Part shown: piece by piece, positions 3,001 to 50,465 of the stretch
How the letters are laid out: every line of letters starts with the position of its first letter
How positions within the stretch are numbered: position 1 is the stretch's first letter
Virus record (IMG/VR): IMGVR_UViG_3300030202_002990
Span: 1-64,000 of that record
DNA from: a virus
DNA length: 64,000 bases
Strand: one strand, 5' to 3'
Translations under genes and position numbers: made by a program
The notes under the pieces: generated by a model
Databases searched by the model: none
The model's input: only the letters and a program-made list of their open reading frames with translations
What the model was told of the DNA's origin: nothing

Positions 3001-6000
3001 GTAGGAAGTCACCACTTCCACTCATAAAGATACCTTTATTTGTTCCTGCTATTGATGTGTTAGGTGTTGTACCAAGTGCAATACTTCCACCACCTGCCGA
3101 ATCAACATCAAAAGTAGAGGTATCAAGTTTAAAAGTATCAGTACTTATATCTAATCCAGTTCCATTAAATTTTATATGACCACCACTTCCTACCGCTGAA
3201 AATAATGGTGTTGTACCACTCGCAACTGCAAGTATTATTCCTGTTTCTCCAAAAGCTTTATCTGCAAGAGCTACACTTGGTTGTAATGCTATAAATGGAC
3301 TATTACTATTACCTCTTATAACAACTTCTTGACCAGTTCCCAAAGACATGGAAGCGTGTGTCGTAGATAGTTCAAGTGAAGGTGTATCTAATTCAAATAA
3401 AGTTGTCTTAATTGATACACCATTACTCGAATCATATCTTAAAAAGTTTTGGGCCCCATCACCAGCGTAAAATCTTGGACTTCCACCATTGAATCCTAAT
3501 TGTATTCCTTCATTTGCGAAGGTATGAGAGTTTATGGATATTTCTGAATTATCTCCATTAGCATTAAGTCTAATTCCACTACCATTACTTGTTAAATTTG
3601 TATCATTTATTGTCCAACCTGCTATTTCACCACCACTAAATTTAGCGTTAGAACCTGTTATATCACCATTCTGTTTTACATTAAATTTTGAGGTGCTAAT
3701 GAACATATATCTTGGGTCATCAACTCCACCCTCTAATGGACTACCACTAATGAATAGGTCACTACTGAATAAAGAGGAACTACCAATTGTAAATCCACCG
3801 ATTAAACCTGAACTTGCAGATATTGAACCTTGAAATGTAGCTCCACTTGCAAATAAAATACCATCCTTATCCACACCAAAGTTTGGCCCCATCTTTATGT
3901 AATAACCTGACGAGTCACCACCTTCAGGTGTAAAGTCTATATAATACTCATCTCTTAATTGTGGAAAGGCTGCTGAACTATCAGTATTAGGTCCTTGGTC
4001 TGATTTATAAAGTGCTGCACCATCTGCATCTAATGTAGCATTTGAACCTGATAATTTACTACCAAATATTTTCCAACCAGCTATTGAACCCGATTTAAAT
4101 GTTGCTAGTCCGTCTGCGGTTATGGAAGCAGATGCATTTAATACTGTAGAAGGTGAACCTGCTATAACTGCTGGTGTTGTAATTGAATCAACGGTGATAT
4201 CACCACGAACAGTTAATACATTATCTATGTATTGTAAATATTGAGCGGCAGATTTGTCACCGAGTAAAACTGCAGAACCTGTTATTTCTCCAGTATCTTT
4301 TAATTTTAATATTTCACCAACAGAAACCGTTCCCTCAGAAACATCTAATCCACCTACACTTCCACCTTCAAGTTGTAATGACGATGCTGATACCTCACCA
4401 GTTGCCCTTACTTGAAAGTTTGATGATGATATAAAGAAATCTGTGCCTGTTGCAGAACCACTTATAAAAAAGTTTGGTCTGTCATTGGGTCCTGAAAATA
4501 AAGAGTCGTTATTAAGTTTAAATGCACCTATTGAGGCAGATACAAACCTAGCAAAACCTTCAGATGTAATGGCTGCCTTTGCAGTTTGTGCATTAGTACC
4601 AGCTGGTGAGAATATATTATTAACACTTAAATCTGCATTTATAACAGCATCAGCTCCAATTGTTAATAAATCATTCTTTGGGTCTAAGTGAAACAACGAT
4701 GAACTAATTTCGATATTACCACCACTACCACTTATGAACTGTAATGGCTCTTGACCTATAAAAAATGCATCTGTTCTGATATCGAGTTCTGCTGGGTCTG
4801 TTCTAAATCTAAAGTAACTTCCACTATGTCCAACTAATTCTAATCCAACTCCACCGTTTGCATAATCATCTGTAATGTTTGATAACACCGAACCACTATA
4901 TAGTAGAAAACCAGGTCCTTGACTTGGATACGCTGAACCACTTGTAAATCCTTTGTATCCAATACTACGAAGAAATCCTGAACTAACACCTGCCATTTCG
5001 ATACCACCACCGATTGAACTACCGATGAACATGGAACCACTTAATACATTATCATCTCCAAGTATGTAAGAATTACCACCTTGAAATGTTGATGCCGAAG
5101 CAAATGATATTGTTTCTGCAATATTATTATTTACATCATAAAATTCCGCCAAGAACTCGTAATCATCAGGTCGCTCTTGAGTTAATGGTGGTACAGGTGC
5201 TATAACTTGTATAAAATTAGGTGAAAATCCAGTATCAGTAGCAGGAGTAATACTTACATCGGATACATGAAATCTTCCACCAAATACTACAAATTGTAAA
5301 ACTCCTGTTCCATCCCTTACTGGTGAAAAGGTCTCGTTTATTGTTCCGAAATCTTGTATATTACCATCTGTAACTTTTAAGAAGCCTGGTTTATTATTTA
5401 TATTAGTTAATTGAAATCCAAGTTGACTTCCAAAATCATGGTTGTTTTCAAAACCTGAACCCGAAATAAATATTGCTGCTAAACCTTGATTTGATATGGA
5501 TTCATCTATATTTGTTTTAGGTCCTGTGAAACCTAATACATTTGCACTTATTTCATATTCCGTATCTTTGAGGTAACTTATTGGTAATGAACCAGTTTGT
5601 TGGAACAATAGGAAGTCATCCTTACCTAAATTCGATCCTGAAACCGCTACTGAATTTAATATATATTGAGAGTCTTGAGTCAATAATGTATTTGAGCCAG
5701 ATGACCAATATAAATTTACATGGTCTTGACTGTGAAAGTAACCAATTCTTTGATTACCTGCTCCAAATACATTAAATAATAATTCAGGTGATTCAATTTG
5801 TTGGTCGGACACCATTTCAAAATCACCAAAGGCATCCTTATTTCTTGCGTAAACTTTAACCCTATCTATATCTCCACTAAATGTTCTTAACCTTGATAAT
5901 CTAATATCAGCATATGACCTAAAATTTACAGTCGATATTGATTGAGTTGGTAATGGTGAAAATGAAGCAGTAAACTCAAACCCTTCATTTGCTAGTGGAA

Positions 6001-7056: not shown

Positions 7057-7230
7057 ATGAAAAAAGAAAAAGTTTCTTTTACCGTAGATAGAGATTTATA
7101 CTTGTGGTTTAAACTTCATGTGAAGGACGAAAGAACAAGTATGAGCGCACTTGTAAACAAATATATAATGGATTTAAAGAATAGTAGAGAAAGTAGACCT
7201 AAAAATCTACTAAAAACTAATCAAAATTAA
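7057..7230 (+). CDS. Small ribbon-helix-helix (Arc/CopG-like) DNA-binding protein
   Basis: This 57-residue protein starts MKKEKVSFTVDRDLYLWF and continues with a 'TSMSALVNKYIMDLK' segment. The pattern is one basic beta-strand followed by two helices, as in the ribbon-helix-helix fold, whose dimers contact operator DNA through the strand. AAGGAG lies about 10 nt before the ATG. It is one of only three plus-strand genes and is transcribed divergently from the tail-fibre gene, so it could control the intervening promoters. Its 3' end overlaps the 3' end of the convergent nuclease gene by 14 nt. A specific regulon is not visible. Confidence 0.8.
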   Translation: MKKEKVSFTVDRDLYLWFKLHVKDERTSMSALVNKYIMDLKNSRESRPKNLLKTNQN

Positions 7231-10200
7231 TCTGACTATAACCTTTTTCTTTCTTGATTTCTAATAGGGAATCTACAGTATCTCTCATGGATTCAATATG
7301 AGATACAATGAAACAGAATTGAAATTGTGATTTTAAGTATTGAAATAACATATAGACAGAATTTAGGTTATCTGAATCCATATTTCCAAAACCCTCATCA
7401 ATAGCTAAAAAGTTTGGTCTTGGTAGATTACACACATTAATCAATCCAACACGAATAGCTAATGAACTAATGAATCGTTCCATACCACTTGATAACTCCA
7501 ACGGCCATACATTATCTTCATCATATGTCAGGTAAGTATTGATATTTTTACCATCCATTTCTAACACAATACCAAAATCAACCATCTGAGAAAGTATATC
7601 ATTTACCTCACCCTCAATTGTAGGTAGTGCCTTTTCAATCAATTCATAAGGTACTCCATCTCGTTTGATGGCGTCCATGTAGTATTTGTAAGCTTCTTGT
7701 TTAGTTTCTAAATCTTGAACCTCATTCATGGTATCTAAGATGGTTTTTTTCTTTGTTTCATTTACTTGTATTTCAGCATGAGCTGTTTGTATTTTAGAAT
7801 CGATAGTATCTATTTGGTATTCCAAGTCATCAATCTTATTCTTTAATTTATCTATATCGTTTTCGACTTTATTATTATATTCTATATCAGTTTCACTATC
7901 GTTATACTTCTGTATTTTTTCTTCTAATTGTTTTATCTTAAGTAAAGTAGTTTTTTTCTTTTCCTTAAGTAATGTTGACTCTGAATCTAAACGGTTCTGT
8001 GAGATTTCAATATCTCTTAACGCCTCAACAGTTCTATCATAATCTACTTTCTTATCATGATACTCCATTAACTCAGATACTTTATCATCTATACCATCCA
8101 ACTCACCTAATTTTTCTCTGGCCAATCCTTTATCATTATCAAGTGATTCCTTTGTACTTATAGCATCTAATGTAAATGGATTACTCATACAATAATCACA
8201 ATTATCATCCCATTCTAAATGACCAAGTTTTTCAATTTTATCAAGTTTATTTTTTACTTCGATTTTTAATTTATCGATATCAACTTTTATTTCTTTTTTA
8301 TGTTCTTGAAAATGAGTCAACTGAAGATACTTTCCATTTACATCCTCATCAGAATATACATTTATCTTTCGTTTAAACTCTTTTATCTTAGTCTTGTTGT
8401 CTTGTTGTGTTCCAACTAACGAACCCATACGAGTATCAATACCTAATAATTCTTCTTCTAATAAATCTCTACCACTTTCAAGTTTATCAATATCCATGAT
8501 AGATTCATCAATAGGTTTTAACTTTTTGGTCATCTGTATAACTTGATTACTGAAATCAGTTCTCCTATCTGTAAGACTTTTTTTCTGATTTCTTAAATCT
8601 GACTGTACTTGTTCGTATTGTTTGTTTTGTTTTTCTAAATCAGCAAGTTCAACATCATAATCTGTTCTATTAAAGTTTCTTAATATAGCAGAGACTTCGT
8701 TTATTTCTTCACTAGCTCTTGTATATAGTAAATCAAAAATACCCATTCCCATAAATTGAGCTAAAAGGTCTTTTCTTTCCTTCTGTGTTTTATCAATAAA
8801 AACAGTTGAGTTGTTCTGTAATGAAAGTGCCGTTAACACAAAATCTTCGTATGTACCAATTACCCTTTTGATATTCAAATTAGTAGTTCGTCTTTGGTCT
8901 CCATTTAACGACACAACCTCATCACTATCATCAATCATCCAAAAGTTAACATCTACCTTCACATGACCATTTCGTTGTTTTTTGGCCTTCCTTTCAATAA
9001 AATAATCGGTGTCATCTATCACCAAATGTGCTTTACAATTAAACTGACCTTTTTTGTTATTCAATACATTACCAGCTTTAAAGGCCCGTGAAGAAGTATC
9101 AAATAAACAGAATGATACGGCATCTAATAAAGATGATTTACCACTTGCGTTTGGTGCGAACATTCCAATAATCCCATTGAGTTTAGTGAAGTCTATTACA
9201 TTATCTTCACCATAACTAAACATATTCGACCATTCAAATCTTTTAATTTTCCAAAATATATTTCTATTTACATCATCATCAGGTAGGTCTGAATTTAATT
9301 CATCATTAATGTCTTTTATCTTTAATAATGTTTTCTCATCTACAATATGATTTCTACCTAAATAATCCTCTATTAATTCATACTGAAAATCAGGATTCTG
9401 TACATCTCCAACATCAACAATTTGACCATCTCTAACCCTTTCGGTCAATCTATCAGTTCTCGATACAGCTATCTCCTTTATACCATATTTGGTCTGTATT
9501 ATACTCAAGGCCTTCTTAAGTTGTACCGAGTCGGTATCTTGTACCCTTACTCTTAACCTGGCCTTTTCTGGCATATCCTTTACATTAGGAACTTTACCTT
9601 CTGTGATATCCATTGTGTAATATCCATAATCATTATGGATTCTAATATATTTAGATTTTCTCTTTGGAACATCCCATAGTAAATAACCGTGGTCTAAACC
9701 TTCACCATGATTCTGTTGAACCAATGAACCACAATAAGATATAGTTTCTTCCTTATTTAGATGTTGTCGTTTATGAATATCACCAAGTAATCCCATATCG
9801 TATCCATCAAATTTTGTAATCTTTACATCACTTGGTAATCTATATCCTAAATCAGTCTCACATCTATCTACGGTTCCATGAAACAATACAATTTTAGTAT
9901 CACCTTCTACTTGGTCTGATGTGATAAAGTCTTTTTCATCACTCCAACAATCCCAAACTACGAATTGTGTATCGGCACAAGTATAGATACCACTATCCTT
10001 TAGATAATGTAAATCAGGATGATTCAGATTTTCAACTATTGGAGTAAGCACATCCATACGAGAACGATTGTTTAAATTACAATCGTGATTACCAGCAATT
10101 ATTATTGTGGGAACTATGTCGGATAGATTCTTAAATAACCTTGATAGTTGGTCAACCAATTCAGGTGACATATCAGTTTTAGAGTGTGCAATATCACCAC

Positions 10201-10366
10201 CTATATAAGCAACAGCATTGTCTTTGTTTTCTCTGACCTTTTCGTAGAGACGATTGAATACTTCTTCGTATTCTGTGTGTCGCTTTAAGTTTCGGATTTG
10301 TATGTCCGAAATGTGATGTATGTGTTTAAGTTTTCGAAAAGGAACTTTTACAACATTTTTTATCAA
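7217..10366 (-). CDS. Single-chain Mre11-Rad50 (gp47-gp46 / SbcD-SbcC) fusion nuclease
   Basis: This 1,049-residue protein joins two enzymes that T4 encodes as separate genes 47 and 46. Residues 1-340 are a calcineurin-like nuclease: SDIQ (20-23), GGDIAH (56-61), GNHD (92-95), HGT (163-165), GDIHKRQ (195-201). Residues 370-1049 are a Rad50/SbcC ATPase: Walker A 'GMFAPNASGKSS' (401-412), long coiled coils, a zinc hook CDYC (723-726), signature LSSGM (958-962) and Walker B 'FLAIDEGFGNMD' (986-997). The predicted role is processing of double-strand ends for recombination-dependent replication. The start is TTG, overlapping the previous stop as TTGA; no in-frame ATG precedes the nuclease motifs. 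The whole frame is open, so this is not a sequencing read-through of two ORFs. Confidence 0.93.
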   Translation of the reverse strand: MIKNVVKVPFRKLKHIHHISDIQIRNLKRHTEYEEVFNRLYEKVRENKDNAVAYIGGDIAHSKTDMSPELVDQLSRLFKNLSDIVPTIIIAGNHDCNLNNRSRMDVLTPIVENLNHPDLHYLKDSGIYTCADTQFVVWDCWSDEKDFITSDQVEGDTKIVLFHGTVDRCETDLGYRLPSDVKITKFDGYDMGLLGDIHKRQHLNKEETISYCGSLVQQNHGEGLDHGYLLWDVPKRKSKYIRIHNDYGYYTMDITEGKVPNVKDMPEKARLRVRVQDTDSVQLKKALSIIQTKYGIKEIAVSRTDRLTERVRDGQIVDVGDVQNPDFQYELIEDYLGRNHIVDEKTLLKIKDINDELNSDLPDDDVNRNIFWKIKRFEWSNMFSYGEDNVIDFTKLNGIIGMFAPNASGKSSLLDAVSFCLFDTSSRAFKAGNVLNNKKGQFNCKAHLVIDDTDYFIERKAKKQRNGHVKVDVNFWMIDDSDEVVSLNGDQRRTTNLNIKRVIGTYEDFVLTALSLQNNSTVFIDKTQKERKDLLAQFMGMGIFDLLYTRASEEINEVSAILRNFNRTDYDVELADLEKQNKQYEQVQSDLRNQKKSLTDRRTDFSNQVIQMTKKLKPIDESIMDIDKLESGRDLLEEELLGIDTRMGSLVGTQQDNKTKIKEFKRKINVYSDEDVNGKYLQLTHFQEHKKEIKVDIDKLKIEVKNKLDKIEKLGHLEWDDNCDYCMSNPFTLDAISTKESLDNDKGLAREKLGELDGIDDKVSELMEYHDKKVDYDRTVEALRDIEISQNRLDSESTLLKEKKKTTLLKIKQLEEKIQKYNDSETDIEYNNKVENDIDKLKNKIDDLEYQIDTIDSKIQTAHAEIQVNETKKKTILDTMNEVQDLETKQEAYKYYMDAIKRDGVPYELIEKALPTIEGEVNDILSQMVDFGIVLEMDGKNINTYLTYDEDNVWPLELSSGMERFISSLAIRVGLINVCNLPRPNFLAIDEGFGNMDSDNLNSVYMLFQYLKSQFQFCFIVSHIESMRDTVDSLLEIKKEKGYSQINFD

Positions 10367-10590
10367 CTATTATCCTTGATGTATTTTTTGACTTTTGTAA
10401 TGAGTTTGTTGGGTACTATTAAATCCCATGAAGTTTCTTCTTTCCATGTTCCACTTTCATAATAAGTAGTTGTGGAATTTCCAAGATTGAATTTTTTTAG
10501 CACTTCTTCTTTTAGTTGTCCACTTGTGATGTGAACTTTCCATTCTTCATCGTTAAATTTCCAAATCGATTCCTGCTGTTTTCTTGCCAC
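10363..10590 (-). CDS. Hypothetical protein between primase and nuclease
   Basis: A 75-residue, Lys/Trp-rich soluble protein (MARKQQESIWKFNDEEW) with no motif I recognise. The GTG start lies inside the end of the primase gene (38-nt overlap) and the stop overlaps the TTG of the nuclease gene, so it is translationally coupled on both sides. The location suggests a replication accessory role, which is unproven. Confidence 0.7.
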   Translation of the reverse strand: MARKQQESIWKFNDEEWKVHITSGQLKEEVLKKFNLGNSTTTYYESGTWKEETSWDLIVPNKLITKVKKYIKDNS

Positions 10591-11500
10591 TTAATTTATA
10601 CCTCATCAGGTCTGAAAATTTCATCTTTGGTGTTTGTTTTATAACATCTACCATCTTACGAAACCCCAAATCTGAAGGGTCCTTCTCAGTTAGTTTTACA
10701 AAGTAGACATCAATATTGTGATTCATAAACTCTTCAACCATTTTTAATGAATCACTTATCGCGTCCGTGTCTAAAGATATATATATCTCTTTAACTTTAT
10801 TTTCGACTATTTTTCTTTTTAGTGACTTAAGAATTTGTTTACCGAACAGAGGAATACAATTTCTTCTAATTGCTATTGCATCAAAGGGACCTTCACAAAG
10901 TACTAATGGTTCAGACCAATTGATGAATAATTCAAATCCAACCACATCTTTTGATGTAGCAGAATTTTTATATTTCATTGGTGATTCATAGATGTCTCTA
11001 CCAACAAAAAAATTTAATTTACCATCTCTATCATAACTTGGAATCACTACACGATTACTAAACATACCACTTTCACAATAACCAATGTTATACTTTAGTA
11101 TATCTTCGTGTGTAATTCCTCTTTTTCTTAAATATGATAATGCATTTTTATAAAATGGATTTGATGACTTTTCCCACATTGGTTTAAATTCATCAGGTAG
11201 TTTTACAATACTTTTATCATCATTTTTAAATTTTCTTGGTTTACTATCAACCAAACCACCCAATTCATCAAATTGTGCTTTAGTGGCTCTCATACCTTTC
11301 AATAAGGTAAATAAACTTCTACCTTTCTTATCACATACCCAACAATGCCATACCGACTTTAAGATGTTTACTTCAAGTTTTGGTTTATAGTGATTACAAA
11401 AAGGACACATCCAAGCAAACTGACCTTGTTTTTTATGTCTTTTATGTTTACCACCTAATACTCTATCGAGTAAGTTTAATATTTTAGTTTCTTCAAACAC
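10553..11500 (-). CDS. DNA primase (DnaG/T4 gp61-like)
   Basis: 315 residues, close to T4 gp61 in length. An N-terminal zinc-binding domain has Cys pairs at 32/35 (CPFC) and 53/56 (CWVC). A TOPRIM core follows, with 'CEGPFDAIAI' (Glu203) and 'SLDTDA' (243-247), the acidic residues that bind metal for RNA primer synthesis. It would act with the replicative helicase, which is not in this window. The start is GTG, 8 nt inside the end of the upstream glycosyltransferase gene. Confidence 0.9.
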   Translation of the reverse strand: MFEETKILNLLDRVLGGKHKRHKKQGQFAWMCPFCNHYKPKLEVNILKSVWHCWVCDKKGRSLFTLLKGMRATKAQFDELGGLVDSKPRKFKNDDKSIVKLPDEFKPMWEKSSNPFYKNALSYLRKRGITHEDILKYNIGYCESGMFSNRVVIPSYDRDGKLNFFVGRDIYESPMKYKNSATSKDVVGFELFINWSEPLVLCEGPFDAIAIRRNCIPLFGKQILKSLKRKIVENKVKEIYISLDTDAISDSLKMVEEFMNHNIDVYFVKLTEKDPSDLGFRKMVDVIKQTPKMKFSDLMRYKLSGKKTAGIDLEI

Positions 11501-12668
11501 TTTTACTTGGACTTATATTTGTAGGTAACCAAACTTGGTCTCCATCTTTATTGTAGATACTGAGTAAATCATCTCTCCACTTTTCAACATCTGAATACTT
11601 GGATAAATACTCTCTTAACTCCCCTAAATAATTATTTCTATCTTCAACAGAAAGATTAGATATTTCAGCAACTTGTTTTTCAAATTGTTTTTGTGTTGAA
11701 GCTCTAAAAGGATACTTCATATCTTTACTCCAATCCTTGTGTAGTATAGGAATTTTACCATAATCTATAGACTGAAAAATACTATAACCAAAAGGCTCAC
11801 TTTCAAAACAACTGTGACTTATTCCCCATTCTTCACTTCGGAAAAACCTATCTATTTTTTCTGACCTATAATCAATGACCTTGAATTTATTTAATTTAAC
11901 ACTTTTTTTATAATCATTAAAACACTTCTCATAAATCTTTTCTAATGTTAAACCAATCGATTCAATTTTTTCTAAAAAATGTAGATTCTTTCTTGGTTCA
12001 CATCTAGCTGGGAATCCTACAACATTAGAACTATTGGCAGGTAGATTGTTTTTAAATTCATATGTGTTTGGTATTGCATAATCAAAATCACCCTCATTAT
12101 CAATACCAATCCATATAGAATTTTCTGAATCCTTAATCAAATAATTTTGATAATCAATAGATTTTTGTTGATAATTTATAACTTTTTTGGTGAACTTTCG
12201 TAACTTTTGTTGACACTTTAATGTAACAGATTCAAGACTATGAATACAGACCGAATCTATTTTTCTGTCGTAAACTTTCCTCATCCTTTTAGATGACCAA
12301 TTTTGAGAATTACCATACATCATTATCGGTAATGGATATGAAAGTAAATGAAACTTTCTTGCACCCTTTATAACCATATCTACTGTTCTTCTATCAGGTA
12401 ATGAAAAGTAATTAGATATTGGAAGACGAGACATTGTATATTCCCACTCCCATTCAGTACCTGGTCTATGGATTACATCTACATATTGTTTGGTATACTC
12501 AATCCATTCCTTATCTTGTTCAATTTCAACTATTAGAATTGGTTTAACAATCAAATGTGGAGATACATTACTTATCCAATCATCAATCCATTTTGAAACA
12601 CCACCATTTGAAACATCACCTACCTCAGTAGCTACATAAACATCATAAGGTTCGTTTAAATTTATCAT
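11493..12668 (-). CDS. GT-B-type glycosyltransferase
   Basis: 391 residues. The C-terminal half carries a nucleotide-sugar-binding pattern: 'VGFPARCEPRKNLHFLEKI' resembles the G-R-x-x-x-x-K-N motif of GT4-type enzymes. 'CFESEPFGYSIFQSIDYGK' followed by IPIL resembles the E-x-x-P-F-G...G-x-P donor-site motif. No membrane segment is visible. The acceptor cannot be told from sequence. Modified phage DNA bases (as with T4 glucosyltransferases), virion proteins or cell-surface glycans are all possible; its position in the replication block slightly favours DNA. It overlaps its upstream neighbour by ATGA. Confidence 0.75.
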   Translation of the reverse strand: MINLNEPYDVYVATEVGDVSNGGVSKWIDDWISNVSPHLIVKPILIVEIEQDKEWIEYTKQYVDVIHRPGTEWEWEYTMSRLPISNYFSLPDRRTVDMVIKGARKFHLLSYPLPIMMYGNSQNWSSKRMRKVYDRKIDSVCIHSLESVTLKCQQKLRKFTKKVINYQQKSIDYQNYLIKDSENSIWIGIDNEGDFDYAIPNTYEFKNNLPANSSNVVGFPARCEPRKNLHFLEKIESIGLTLEKIYEKCFNDYKKSVKLNKFKVIDYRSEKIDRFFRSEEWGISHSCFESEPFGYSIFQSIDYGKIPILHKDWSKDMKYPFRASTQKQFEKQVAEISNLSVEDRNNYLGELREYLSKYSDVEKWRDDLLSIYNKDGDQVWLPTNISPSKSV

Positions 12669-12997
12669 TTTATTAAATCTATAAAATCTTTAATTTCCAA
12701 CACCGCGTAAGTTTTACTACGATTTCTCTTAAATATTAAAACAGGTTTACCCTTTTCACTATTGGATTCTGCCTGTTTTAATGATTCCCATATGTTTAAT
12801 TTTTCTTGATTCTTACATTCAATAGCATATGGTATCAATTTACGAGCAGCAGGTGAAAGTTGTATATCTTCACCACTTTCTCCCATCGTAGTAGATTTGA
12901 TGTCATCGGGTTCTAATTGTTTGAAGTTTTCTAATAACTGGTCACGAATTTGATTCTGTAACCTTTTACCTTTATTTTTAGCAGAACGAGTTTTCAT
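12665..12997 (-). CDS. Small PD-(D/E)XK-type nuclease-like protein
   Basis: 110 residues. A basic N-terminus (KNKGKRLQNQIRDQLLENF) precedes 'GESGEDIQLS' and 'YAIECKNQEKLNIW', giving the E...D...E-x-K arrangement of Holliday-junction-resolvase-like or VRR-type nucleases. The family is typically small and single-domain. It sits upstream of the glycosyltransferase with an ATGA overlap and close to recombination genes, so a role in DNA processing is likely. The exact substrate is unknown. Confidence 0.7.
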   Translation of the reverse strand: MKTRSAKNKGKRLQNQIRDQLLENFKQLEPDDIKSTTMGESGEDIQLSPAARKLIPYAIECKNQEKLNIWESLKQAESNSEKGKPVLIFKRNRSKTYAVLEIKDFIDLIK

Positions 12998-47538: not shown

Positions 47539-47592
47539 ATATAGAATTTACAACTTTTTATAACCATTTACAAGTGTTTTCTTGCTGTTTTG

Positions 47593-48005
47593 TGGAGGTG
47601 TGGGGATTCGAACCCCAGTCCTGTTTATTATTAATATTAAGTCATTCACAGTTTAGTTAGGTTACTACCCTCTGAGAAGTTACCTACAAACCACCAACTA
47701 TTTTCTTGGATAGCTCCGTATGTTCTTTTATACTCATAACATGAGGAGTTGATGTCTAACTTATTTTATGACCGAGTGTTAGACAACTCAGTAACTTATG
47801 CGTAAGCGTAAGTTGGTTGGTCATTCTGAACAGGAGTGACAAAGTTGTCAAATCCCATTTCAGCATTGGCTAAATGCCAATCAATGTCCAACCCTTCAAG
47901 CGATTTATCGCCATTTGAGTTTCGTTGGGTTTTATTTAAGAGTTTACCCAAACTCTACTGCACTTAAATATCAACCAATACCAGTCGATTTCCAAGTTCA
48001 CCCCC
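47593..48005 (-). ncRNA. ssrA: Transfer-messenger RNA (tmRNA)
   Basis: 413 nt. The 5' end GGGGGTG pairs with CACCTCC at the 3' end. T-arm is TGGGG-TTCGAAT-CCCCA. The 5' region has the tmRNA-type TCGACTGG. A long P2 helix pairs 'TTGATATTTAAG' with 'CTTAATATTAA'. Pseudoknot PK1 is GAGTTT-GGGT-AAACTC (47955-47940) with loop GGGT pairing to ACCC (47930-47927). A 14-nt gap then leads to a resume codon candidate GGC at 47912. That frame runs 38 codons to TAA (47798-47796) and ends TPVQNDQPTYAYA, a hydrophobic Ala-ended tag. A PK2-like stem TGTCTAAC/GTTAGACA follows. CCA is not encoded. The tag start is less certain than the gene. Confidence 0.93.
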
Positions 48006-48751: not shown

Positions 48752-49279
48752 CTAATCCATTAAAAATATTTCTTGTGAGTCTATCAATGTAGACTCTATA
48801 CTCCAATATAATTTCATCCAACTACCACTACCCTTATTTTGCATTACTTTTACAGGTGTTAATGTGTTGTAGAAATAACCTAAACTATCAACCATAGAAA
48901 CTTTATCTGTTGTCCATCTCAATGTATCTACATTTACATCCATCGTATCTCTGTTACCAAAGTTATCATACCATATAGCTTTATTTCTTCTGTTTGGTAA
49001 TAATTTGTAATGTCCACTTGAATCATCCTCATCCCAATACATATTACTCCACCAATGAACAACTAATCTATCAACAGGTACACCATCTCCTGATTCTAAA
49101 TGTCCCCATATTGGTGCTGGTGTAATCCATAGATTGTCTTGTATTTCAATTCTATTTACTCTTAACATCGTTACGATTATATTGGCTTCATTTGGTTCTT
49201 CTATTCTATCATCACAAGTAACCGTTAATGTAGTTAATATCAGAACAATCCAAATTATTTTATTCAATTTATTCTCCAA
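48752..49279 (-). CDS. Lipoprotein of unknown function
   Basis: 175 residues. 'IIWIVLILTTLTVTC' then DDR is a lipoprotein signal with the Cys at residue 23. The mature part is beta-rich and has 'RNKAIWYDNFGNRDTMDVN', similar to a segment of the lipoprotein at 19789-20376, so the two are probably distant paralogues. Overlaps the IMP dehydrogenase gene end. Confidence 0.72.
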   Translation of the reverse strand: MENKLNKIIWIVLILTTLTVTCDDRIEEPNEANIIVTMLRVNRIEIQDNLWITPAPIWGHLESGDGVPVDRLVVHWWSNMYWDEDDSSGHYKLLPNRRNKAIWYDNFGNRDTMDVNVDTLRWTTDKVSMVDSLGYFYNTLTPVKVMQNKGSGSWMKLYWSIESTLIDSQEIFLMD

Positions 49280-50465
49280 TCAAATGTGGTCTCGCCTCTA
49301 ATTGTCCTGCACTTGTTACTTCTACAAACTCTACTTTACTATGAAACTCAGAAAGATTGTTAGCACCAACATAACTGAAACTGCTAGAAATTCCATCTTT
49401 AATATCTGATAATATTCTATAGACTTTCCCCTTATACGGTATAACTTTATGATTCCCTTCAACATTCTTATCATTTCCTTTTGAGTCCCTTGAGGCGGAA
49501 CCCCTATACTTTTTAAATAATTTTTCGTTAGGCCATTGTCCTTGTTTTTCTATTTGACCTGGACTTTCTTTGGTGCCCGAAAGTAACGAACCAACCATGA
49601 TGGTGTCAGCTCCACAACCAAGTCCTTTAGCCACATCACCCACATTCCGAATACCACCATCAGCAATGATAGGAATATCCCAATCGTCAGCAACGGAACA
49701 AACATCAATAAGAGTAGTAACCTGAGGTAATCCAACACCAGTCCTGATTCTTGTTTCACATAGTGAGCCGTTACCGATTCCCACTCTGATGGCGTCAGCA
49801 CCCTTTTCAGCCAGAAATCGTGCCCCATCACTTGTTGCGATGTTTCCTGCGACAACCTCGACATTCGATATTTTACTTTTGATTTTCTCAATGGCTTCTC
49901 CTACATTCTTATGATGTCCGTGTGCTACATCAATAAGTAGTACATTACAACCGTTTAAAACTAATTCTTTAGCCCTCTCTAAGTAGTCTCCCTTGACTCC
50001 AATAGCTGCACATAAGGGTCTTTTACTCCAATACTCTTCATCTTTCTTAGCCTCATCTGCAAACCATAGTAATTCTTCTAAATCTTCAAAATCAGATTTT
50101 GTTGGTGGATGGTTCCAAGACATTACACCTCTGTACCAATCTTCATATACTCTATGGTGGTCGGTTCTATCTTCATCCTTGTCGCCTATGTTATACCAAC
50201 TATCCCATTGTCTCCAAACTCTTTTCATTTGTTCGGTTTGTTTTTCAATACTTTGAAATCTATGTATAACACCAACACCGCCTTGGTCTAACATTTCAGA
50301 AGCCATCTTGTATTCTGTAACCGTATCCATAGGAGACGCCACTATTGGTACACTCATTGTTGTGTTTTTTGTAAACCTTGTAGAGAGGTCTATATCTTCA
50401 CGAGATAAAACTTCTGAGTATTTTGGGACGATGTTTACATCATCATATGTTAAATATTTTTTCAA
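49269..50465 (-). CDS. guaB: IMP dehydrogenase / GMP reductase family enzyme
   Basis: 398 residues. '[15 protein letters not shown]' and '[13 protein letters not shown]' open the TIM barrel. The catalytic loop is '[20 protein letters not shown]' (Cys236). '[16 protein letters not shown]' and the flap '[13 protein letters not shown]' follow. The CBS pair present in most bacterial GuaB is replaced by about 60 residues of unrelated charged sequence (85-148). It would divert IMP to XMP for guanine nucleotide supply; a GMP reductase function cannot be fully excluded. The start is TTG, directly after the upstream stop. Confidence 0.85.

Follow-up and report, generated by a model that had tools for sequence, protein, structure and literature searches.

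We analysed a window of 64,000 nucleotides (positions 1 to 64,000 of IMG/VR virus record IMGVR_UViG_3300030202_002990) that carries, at 7217..10366 on the minus strand, a gene for a fused SbcD/Mre11-SbcC/Rad50 protein of 1049 aa. The gene is a single uninterrupted open frame of 1,049 codons in the ORF list; the chance of so many stop-free codons is ~1e-43 at its 31% GC, and 97 and 157 stops occur in that strand's two other frames. Its TTG start overlaps the TGA of a preceding 75-codon ORF (as TTGA), and AAGGA lies just 5' of this start. Pfam assigned Metallophos to residues 15-199 (E 1e-9) and AAA_23/SMC_N to residues 374-1042, and PHROGs placed a metallophosphoesterase (phrog_35725) at 11-223 and an SbcC-like match (phrog_77, E 3e-50) at 373-1047. 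Together with the hook sequence C723-D-Y-C726 and an alignment of 79 proteins, these matches bore out an earlier note on this DNA, which had read one 1,049-residue frame as a nuclease joined to a Rad50-type ATPase with a zinc hook.

Directly upstream of the fusion is a DnaG-type primase gene (10553..11500, minus strand; PF08275, PF01807, phrog_47), an order that recurred on the same strand in 77 of the 83 loci with enough upstream sequence, Microcystis phage Mel-JY01 included. The 75-aa ORF from the ORF list (10363..10590, minus strand) sits between primase and fusion and overlaps both; it had no Pfam or PHROG match and was present in 10 of 83 related loci. The same replication-recombination cluster contains a PDDEXK/RusA-like resolvase gene (12665..12997, minus strand; PF24608, phrog_244). 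Between resolvase and primase we observed a 391-aa ORF (window 11493-12668, minus strand) that matched neither Pfam nor PHROG and was not detected beside the fusion in most relatives. Elsewhere on the minus strand, this phage record encodes a tmRNA at window 47590-48005 (Rfam RF00023, 85.3 bits, full model length, 3' end TTCGAATCCCCACACCTCCACAA), which ARAGORN did not report, and a full-length homologue of IMP dehydrogenase (GuaB) at window 49269-50465 (PF00478, E 1.5e-107).

The first part of the fusion protein, all of it encoded on the minus strand, is a Mre11/SbcD-type calcineurin-like nuclease core (residues 14-244; 9635..10327), recognised from PF00149, from conservation in the 79 proteins and from alignment to 7dog_B, and bearing the motifs D21-x-Q23, GD58IAH, GN93H94D, H163 and GD196IH198. 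A capping domain (residues 245-304; 9455..9634) follows in the AlphaFold2 model and in the alignment to an SbcD nuclease and capping domain. The predicted secondary structure then contains a helix-loop-helix (residues 325-339 and 344-359; 9290..9394), which from its position would correspond to the Rad50-binding motif, as in Thermotoga maritima Mre11 (PMC3175470). The border between the halves is a linker of 11 residues (360-370; 9257..9289), delimited by the model and by conservation of segment length, and lies within the 9250-9350 stretch that the earlier note had flagged. Beyond it, Pfam, alignment and a structural match to SbcC defined a Rad50/SbcC N-lobe (residues 371-541; 8744..9256) with Walker A NASGKS and Q-loop Q517. 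Model helices form an ascending coiled coil (542-714; 8225..8743) and a descending one (730-900; 7667..8179), so that the hook CxxC (C723-C726; 8189..8200), both cysteines of which are invariant in 79 of 79 proteins, is flanked in the model by two helical arms of ~170 residues each. The chain ends in the C-lobe (residues 905-1049; 7220..7654), assigned by the same three lines of evidence as the N-lobe, with the signature SSGME, the Walker B/D-loop FLAIDEGFGNMD and H-loop H1023. Both halves of the P-loop ATPase, Walker A and Walker B/signature, are thus present in Pfam matches and alignment.

The AlphaFold2 model, built from 57 sequences, reached a mean pLDDT of 82, so that the individual domains can be trusted; its pTM of 0.48 lends no such confidence to the relative arrangement of the two halves or to their docking within the chain. 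Residues 14-304 of the model matched the nuclease and capping domain of Staphylococcus aureus SbcD (7dog_B) with Z 24.0 and 2.9 Å over 275 residues, and residues 372-1049 matched the Escherichia coli SbcC head (7yzo_D) with Z 29.4 and 3.2 Å over 350 residues. The first Rad50 strand starts at residue 371, eleven residues after the helix-loop-helix, and 9-12 residues had been computed to bridge the end of Mre11 and the start of Rad50 in T. maritima (PMC3175470). Hence, the linker barely suffices for the known complex to assemble within one chain, and we infer that the fusion may indeed form it in this way. The helix-loop-helix would then bind the coiled coil of the same chain at its base, two chains would pair through their nuclease and ATPase halves to give the usual M2R2 head, and ATP binding and hydrolysis would gate the nuclease. 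Split Mre11-Rad50 already assembles 2:2, so the suggestion that a fusion fixes a 1:1 stoichiometry adds little.

A lost stop or a frameshift error could in principle have joined two normally separate genes. Such accidental joins do occur: in Listeria phage LMTA-57 (L113, 2417-5446), the usually separate nuclease and ATPase genes are joined into a frame of 1,009 aa by the loss of one A from an A-run that immediately precedes the A511-type stop. This loss, whether a true mutation or an error of sequencing, left the old intergenic region, its ribosome site and its ATG untouched. No such relict start remained at the border of the window fusion, where we found neither a start codon nor a strong ribosome site. 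The border segment (residues 321-373) was of near-constant length across the family, with 52 or 53 residues in all but one of the 79 proteins and 50 in the exception. Furthermore, pN was well below pS in every block of the gene, the border block of residues 271-375 included, indicating purifying selection throughout. Above all, 78 other distinct full-length fusions came from separate assemblies. An artefactual join is refuted by these independent intact homologues, and its probability is negligible; the sequencing error feared in the earlier note, one that removed a stop/start pair between the domains, is ruled out by the same homologues, linker and selection. We also considered an internal restart that would yield a separate Rad50, and rejected it: the stretch of residues 300-400 has just two in-frame start codons, TTG307 and ATG382, and neither lies at the border or has a good ribosome site.

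The relatives were gathered in two scans of IMG/VR. A first scan with the window protein gave ten, five of which were complete fusions, the other five being truncated at a contig end, and a second used an alignment and short patterns confined to the nuclease half, from which the best 80 of at least 586 relatives were kept. This kept set favours full-length matches, and the fused share given here applies to it rather than to all 586. After removal of duplicates, the two-domain architecture, for which the earlier note had suggested a search of phage protein databases, was found in 78 distinct proteins besides the window's own, at 98% to 24% identity and with both halves in one stop-free frame; those IMG/VR loci that did not span both halves all ran off a contig end. 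At least two cultured phages carry the fusion, Mel-JY01 and Tenacibaculum phage PTm5 (1,318 aa), and a fused form also occurs in a 735-kb phage. Matches in genome contigs were mostly on short contigs in MAGs of unrelated phyla, probably as phage carry-over, and the plasmid search gave one short C-terminal match only. The fusion thus appears to be the rule among the relatives examined here, and the doubt in the earlier note that it is a standard arrangement did not hold up, the arrangement having been in the literature since 2011 (PMC3175470). As represented in these records, the single-chain Mre11-Rad50 nuclease is standard equipment of a large group of aquatic phages, where it stands beside the primase.

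Three features of the active sites are unusual, two of them at metal-ligand positions of the nuclease and the third in the ABC signature, which reads SGME. Invariant in 79 of 79 proteins are D58, N93, H94, H163, D196 and H198 of the nuclease half and, in the Rad50 half, the Walker A GK, the signature SGME, the Walker B DE and the H-loop His; GDxxH, in the form GDIAH in the window protein, is present in 78 of 79. The GHxH motif is replaced by GDIH in all 79, which puts Asp at the position of Pyrococcus furiosus His206. The canonical DxH of motif I is also missing from the window protein, which reads D21-I-Q23 and keeps the rest of the active site; DxQ occurs in every member with at least 55% identity to the window protein in which the residue is present, and DxH in the rest. 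Changes at these two positions (Q23 and the Asp in place of His206) may set the activity apart from that of classical Mn-dependent Mre11. One might go further and take the nuclease half to be degenerate, leaving a protein that would cut DNA little and work chiefly as a tether or ATPase in the manner of Rad50, as would be suggested by the Gln that replaces His in the window's own clade and by the Asp that, family-wide, takes the place of the initial His in GHxH. All other metal and catalytic positions are invariant, however, and pN over the first 100 residues of the nuclease half is among the lowest in the gene. Asp and Gln are, moreover, able to bind metals, and the nuclease of Mimivirus R555 was reported to have both GDxxH and the same Asp at the His206 position (PMC3175470), features that the window protein shares. 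We therefore regard a degenerate nuclease half as very improbable.

Our proposed reading, drawn from sequence and structural model and given a probability of roughly 0.88, is that an aquatic tailed phage here makes its DNA-end-processing Mre11-Rad50 (SbcD-SbcC) nuclease as a single chain. The fusion appears to replace the separate pair, as no separate partner was found in the window's record, which holds one Metallophos protein and one SbcC and no second copy of either, or in the complete Mel-JY01 genome, in which nothing but the fusion matched Metallophos or gave a strong match to SbcC. By analogy with T4 gp46/47, the enzyme would process DNA ends and hairpins in the course of repair and recombination-dependent replication of the phage, and might help to break down host DNA. 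Its cluster with primase and resolvase genes, together with a RecA-type recombinase encoded in two of six relatives tested (Mel-JY01 and the L061 record), fits such a role in recombination-dependent replication; RecA was not found in the window's 82-kb record, which is probably incomplete. A specialised duty of the single-chain enzyme, such as host-DNA degradation or attack on competing replicons in place of replication or repair, would find some precedent, since SMC-like nuclease complexes can restrict foreign DNA and T4 gp46/47 also degrade host DNA according to the T4 record annotation. The conserved place in the primase/resolvase cluster, and the distribution of the fusion over hundreds of related contigs, unlike that of a sporadic accessory gene, make this improbable compared to a role in replication and repair. 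Single-chain proteins of ~1,050 residues with short coiled coils could suit structural work on gating of the nuclease by the helix-loop-helix and the ATPase.

In a tree of the nuclease, a supported branch set the split proteins of T4 and the Herelleviridae apart from every fused protein; within the fused side, the order of many forks was unresolved. Two nuclease-only rows (L106 and L105) fell among the fused proteins, of which we left L105 out of the interpretation, as its contig may be chimeric. L106 (5977-6828) is a nuclease-only ORF on a 286-kb contig of a Bacteroidales MAG, and an ATPase ORF of ~800 residues (L111, 1357-3747) lies ~12 kb from it by record coordinates, taking G001:C1 to be the same contig. 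In family numbering, the alignment of the nuclease stops near residue 258 and that of the ATPase begins near residue 292, ahead of which the ATPase has ~40 extra residues. As the cut thus falls between nuclease and capping domain and not at the Mre11/Rad50 border, it suggests re-splitting of a fused ancestor, and we consider this one case a probable secondary split. A 484-kb phage (LR756508; L014, ~3600-4650) has ~1 kb inserted into its fusion gene immediately behind the active-site motif GDIHKRQ. This insert contains a 305-codon ORF and matched no Rfam intron family; we take it to be a probable mobile intron with a homing endonuclease. It is tempting to view the fused lineage, which in at least one Bacteroidales-associated contig seems to have been cut again between the nuclease and its capping domain, as a functionally distinct enzyme class. 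The altered two-metal site (GDxH in all members and DxQ in the window clade), the SGME signature and obligatory in-chain coupling could then bring different metal use or an endonuclease bias. From the sequences considered here, we hold such a class to be unlikely.

Fusions of Mre11 and Rad50 were first described by Yoshida, Claverie and Ogata in 2011 (PMC3175470), who listed R555 of Mimivirus, a protein of Bacillus phage 0305phi8-36, and six eukaryotic and five bacterial examples, some of the latter plasmid-borne. The same study traced homologues to the aquatic GOS marine metagenome, on scaffolds with phage-like genes, primases among them, and suggested that some were phage-derived. Beyond that study, we found no later literature directly relevant to phage Mre11-Rad50 fusions; part of a review on jumbo phages calls SbcC and SbcD near universal and, in that part, does not mention them as fused. 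The window protein resembles the R555-type family in its domain order, GDxxH, the Asp at the P. furiosus His206 position, the occurrence in aquatic viruses and the primase genes on some metagenome scaffolds. It differs from R555 itself in length (1049 versus 1351 aa), in its phage rather than giant-virus setting and in having DxQ instead of DxH in motif I. The best full-length BFVD structural matches of the model were mimivirus-group fusions (Tupanvirus, Harvfovirus, Yasminevirus and Catovirus), most of them annotated as DNA repair proteins.

Mel-JY01 WWT39521.1 shares with the window protein 39% identity over the full length, the architecture, the upstream primase and the lack of a detectable separate partner, but has DxH in motif I and is annotated as 'AAA domain containing protein' rather than as a fusion. 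The domains of phage T4 gp47 and gp46 are homologous, and there too the nuclease gene lies upstream of the ATPase gene; the two T4 genes are, however, separated by 46.1 and 46.2, carry GHFH and GDIFD motifs and are far off in the nuclease tree. Hence, the label of fused gp47 and gp46 given in the earlier note stands for gp47-like and gp46-like (SbcD and SbcC) parts in one polypeptide and not for the T4 proteins in particular, as the window family forms its own lineage and the full-length structures closest to the model are giant-virus fusions. The Herelleviridae pair (A511 gp114/gp115, phiNIT1 and Twort) has a similar neighbourhood of nuclease, ATPase and primase, with a RusA-like resolvase near the primase in Twort, but consists of two separate genes and has GHYH where the window family has GDIH. 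E. coli SbcCD and the archaeal and T. maritima Mre11-Rad50 share the folds of both halves and differ in having two polypeptides, canonical metal ligands and an SGGE-type signature instead of SGME. Overall, the window gene has the traits of the kind of fusion described in 2011, and the arrangement itself was already known; long contigs and one complete phage genome now support what had been inferred from short marine reads, to which our analysis adds scale, a near-constant linker, a fixed primase neighbour, the DxQ clade and a probable re-split.
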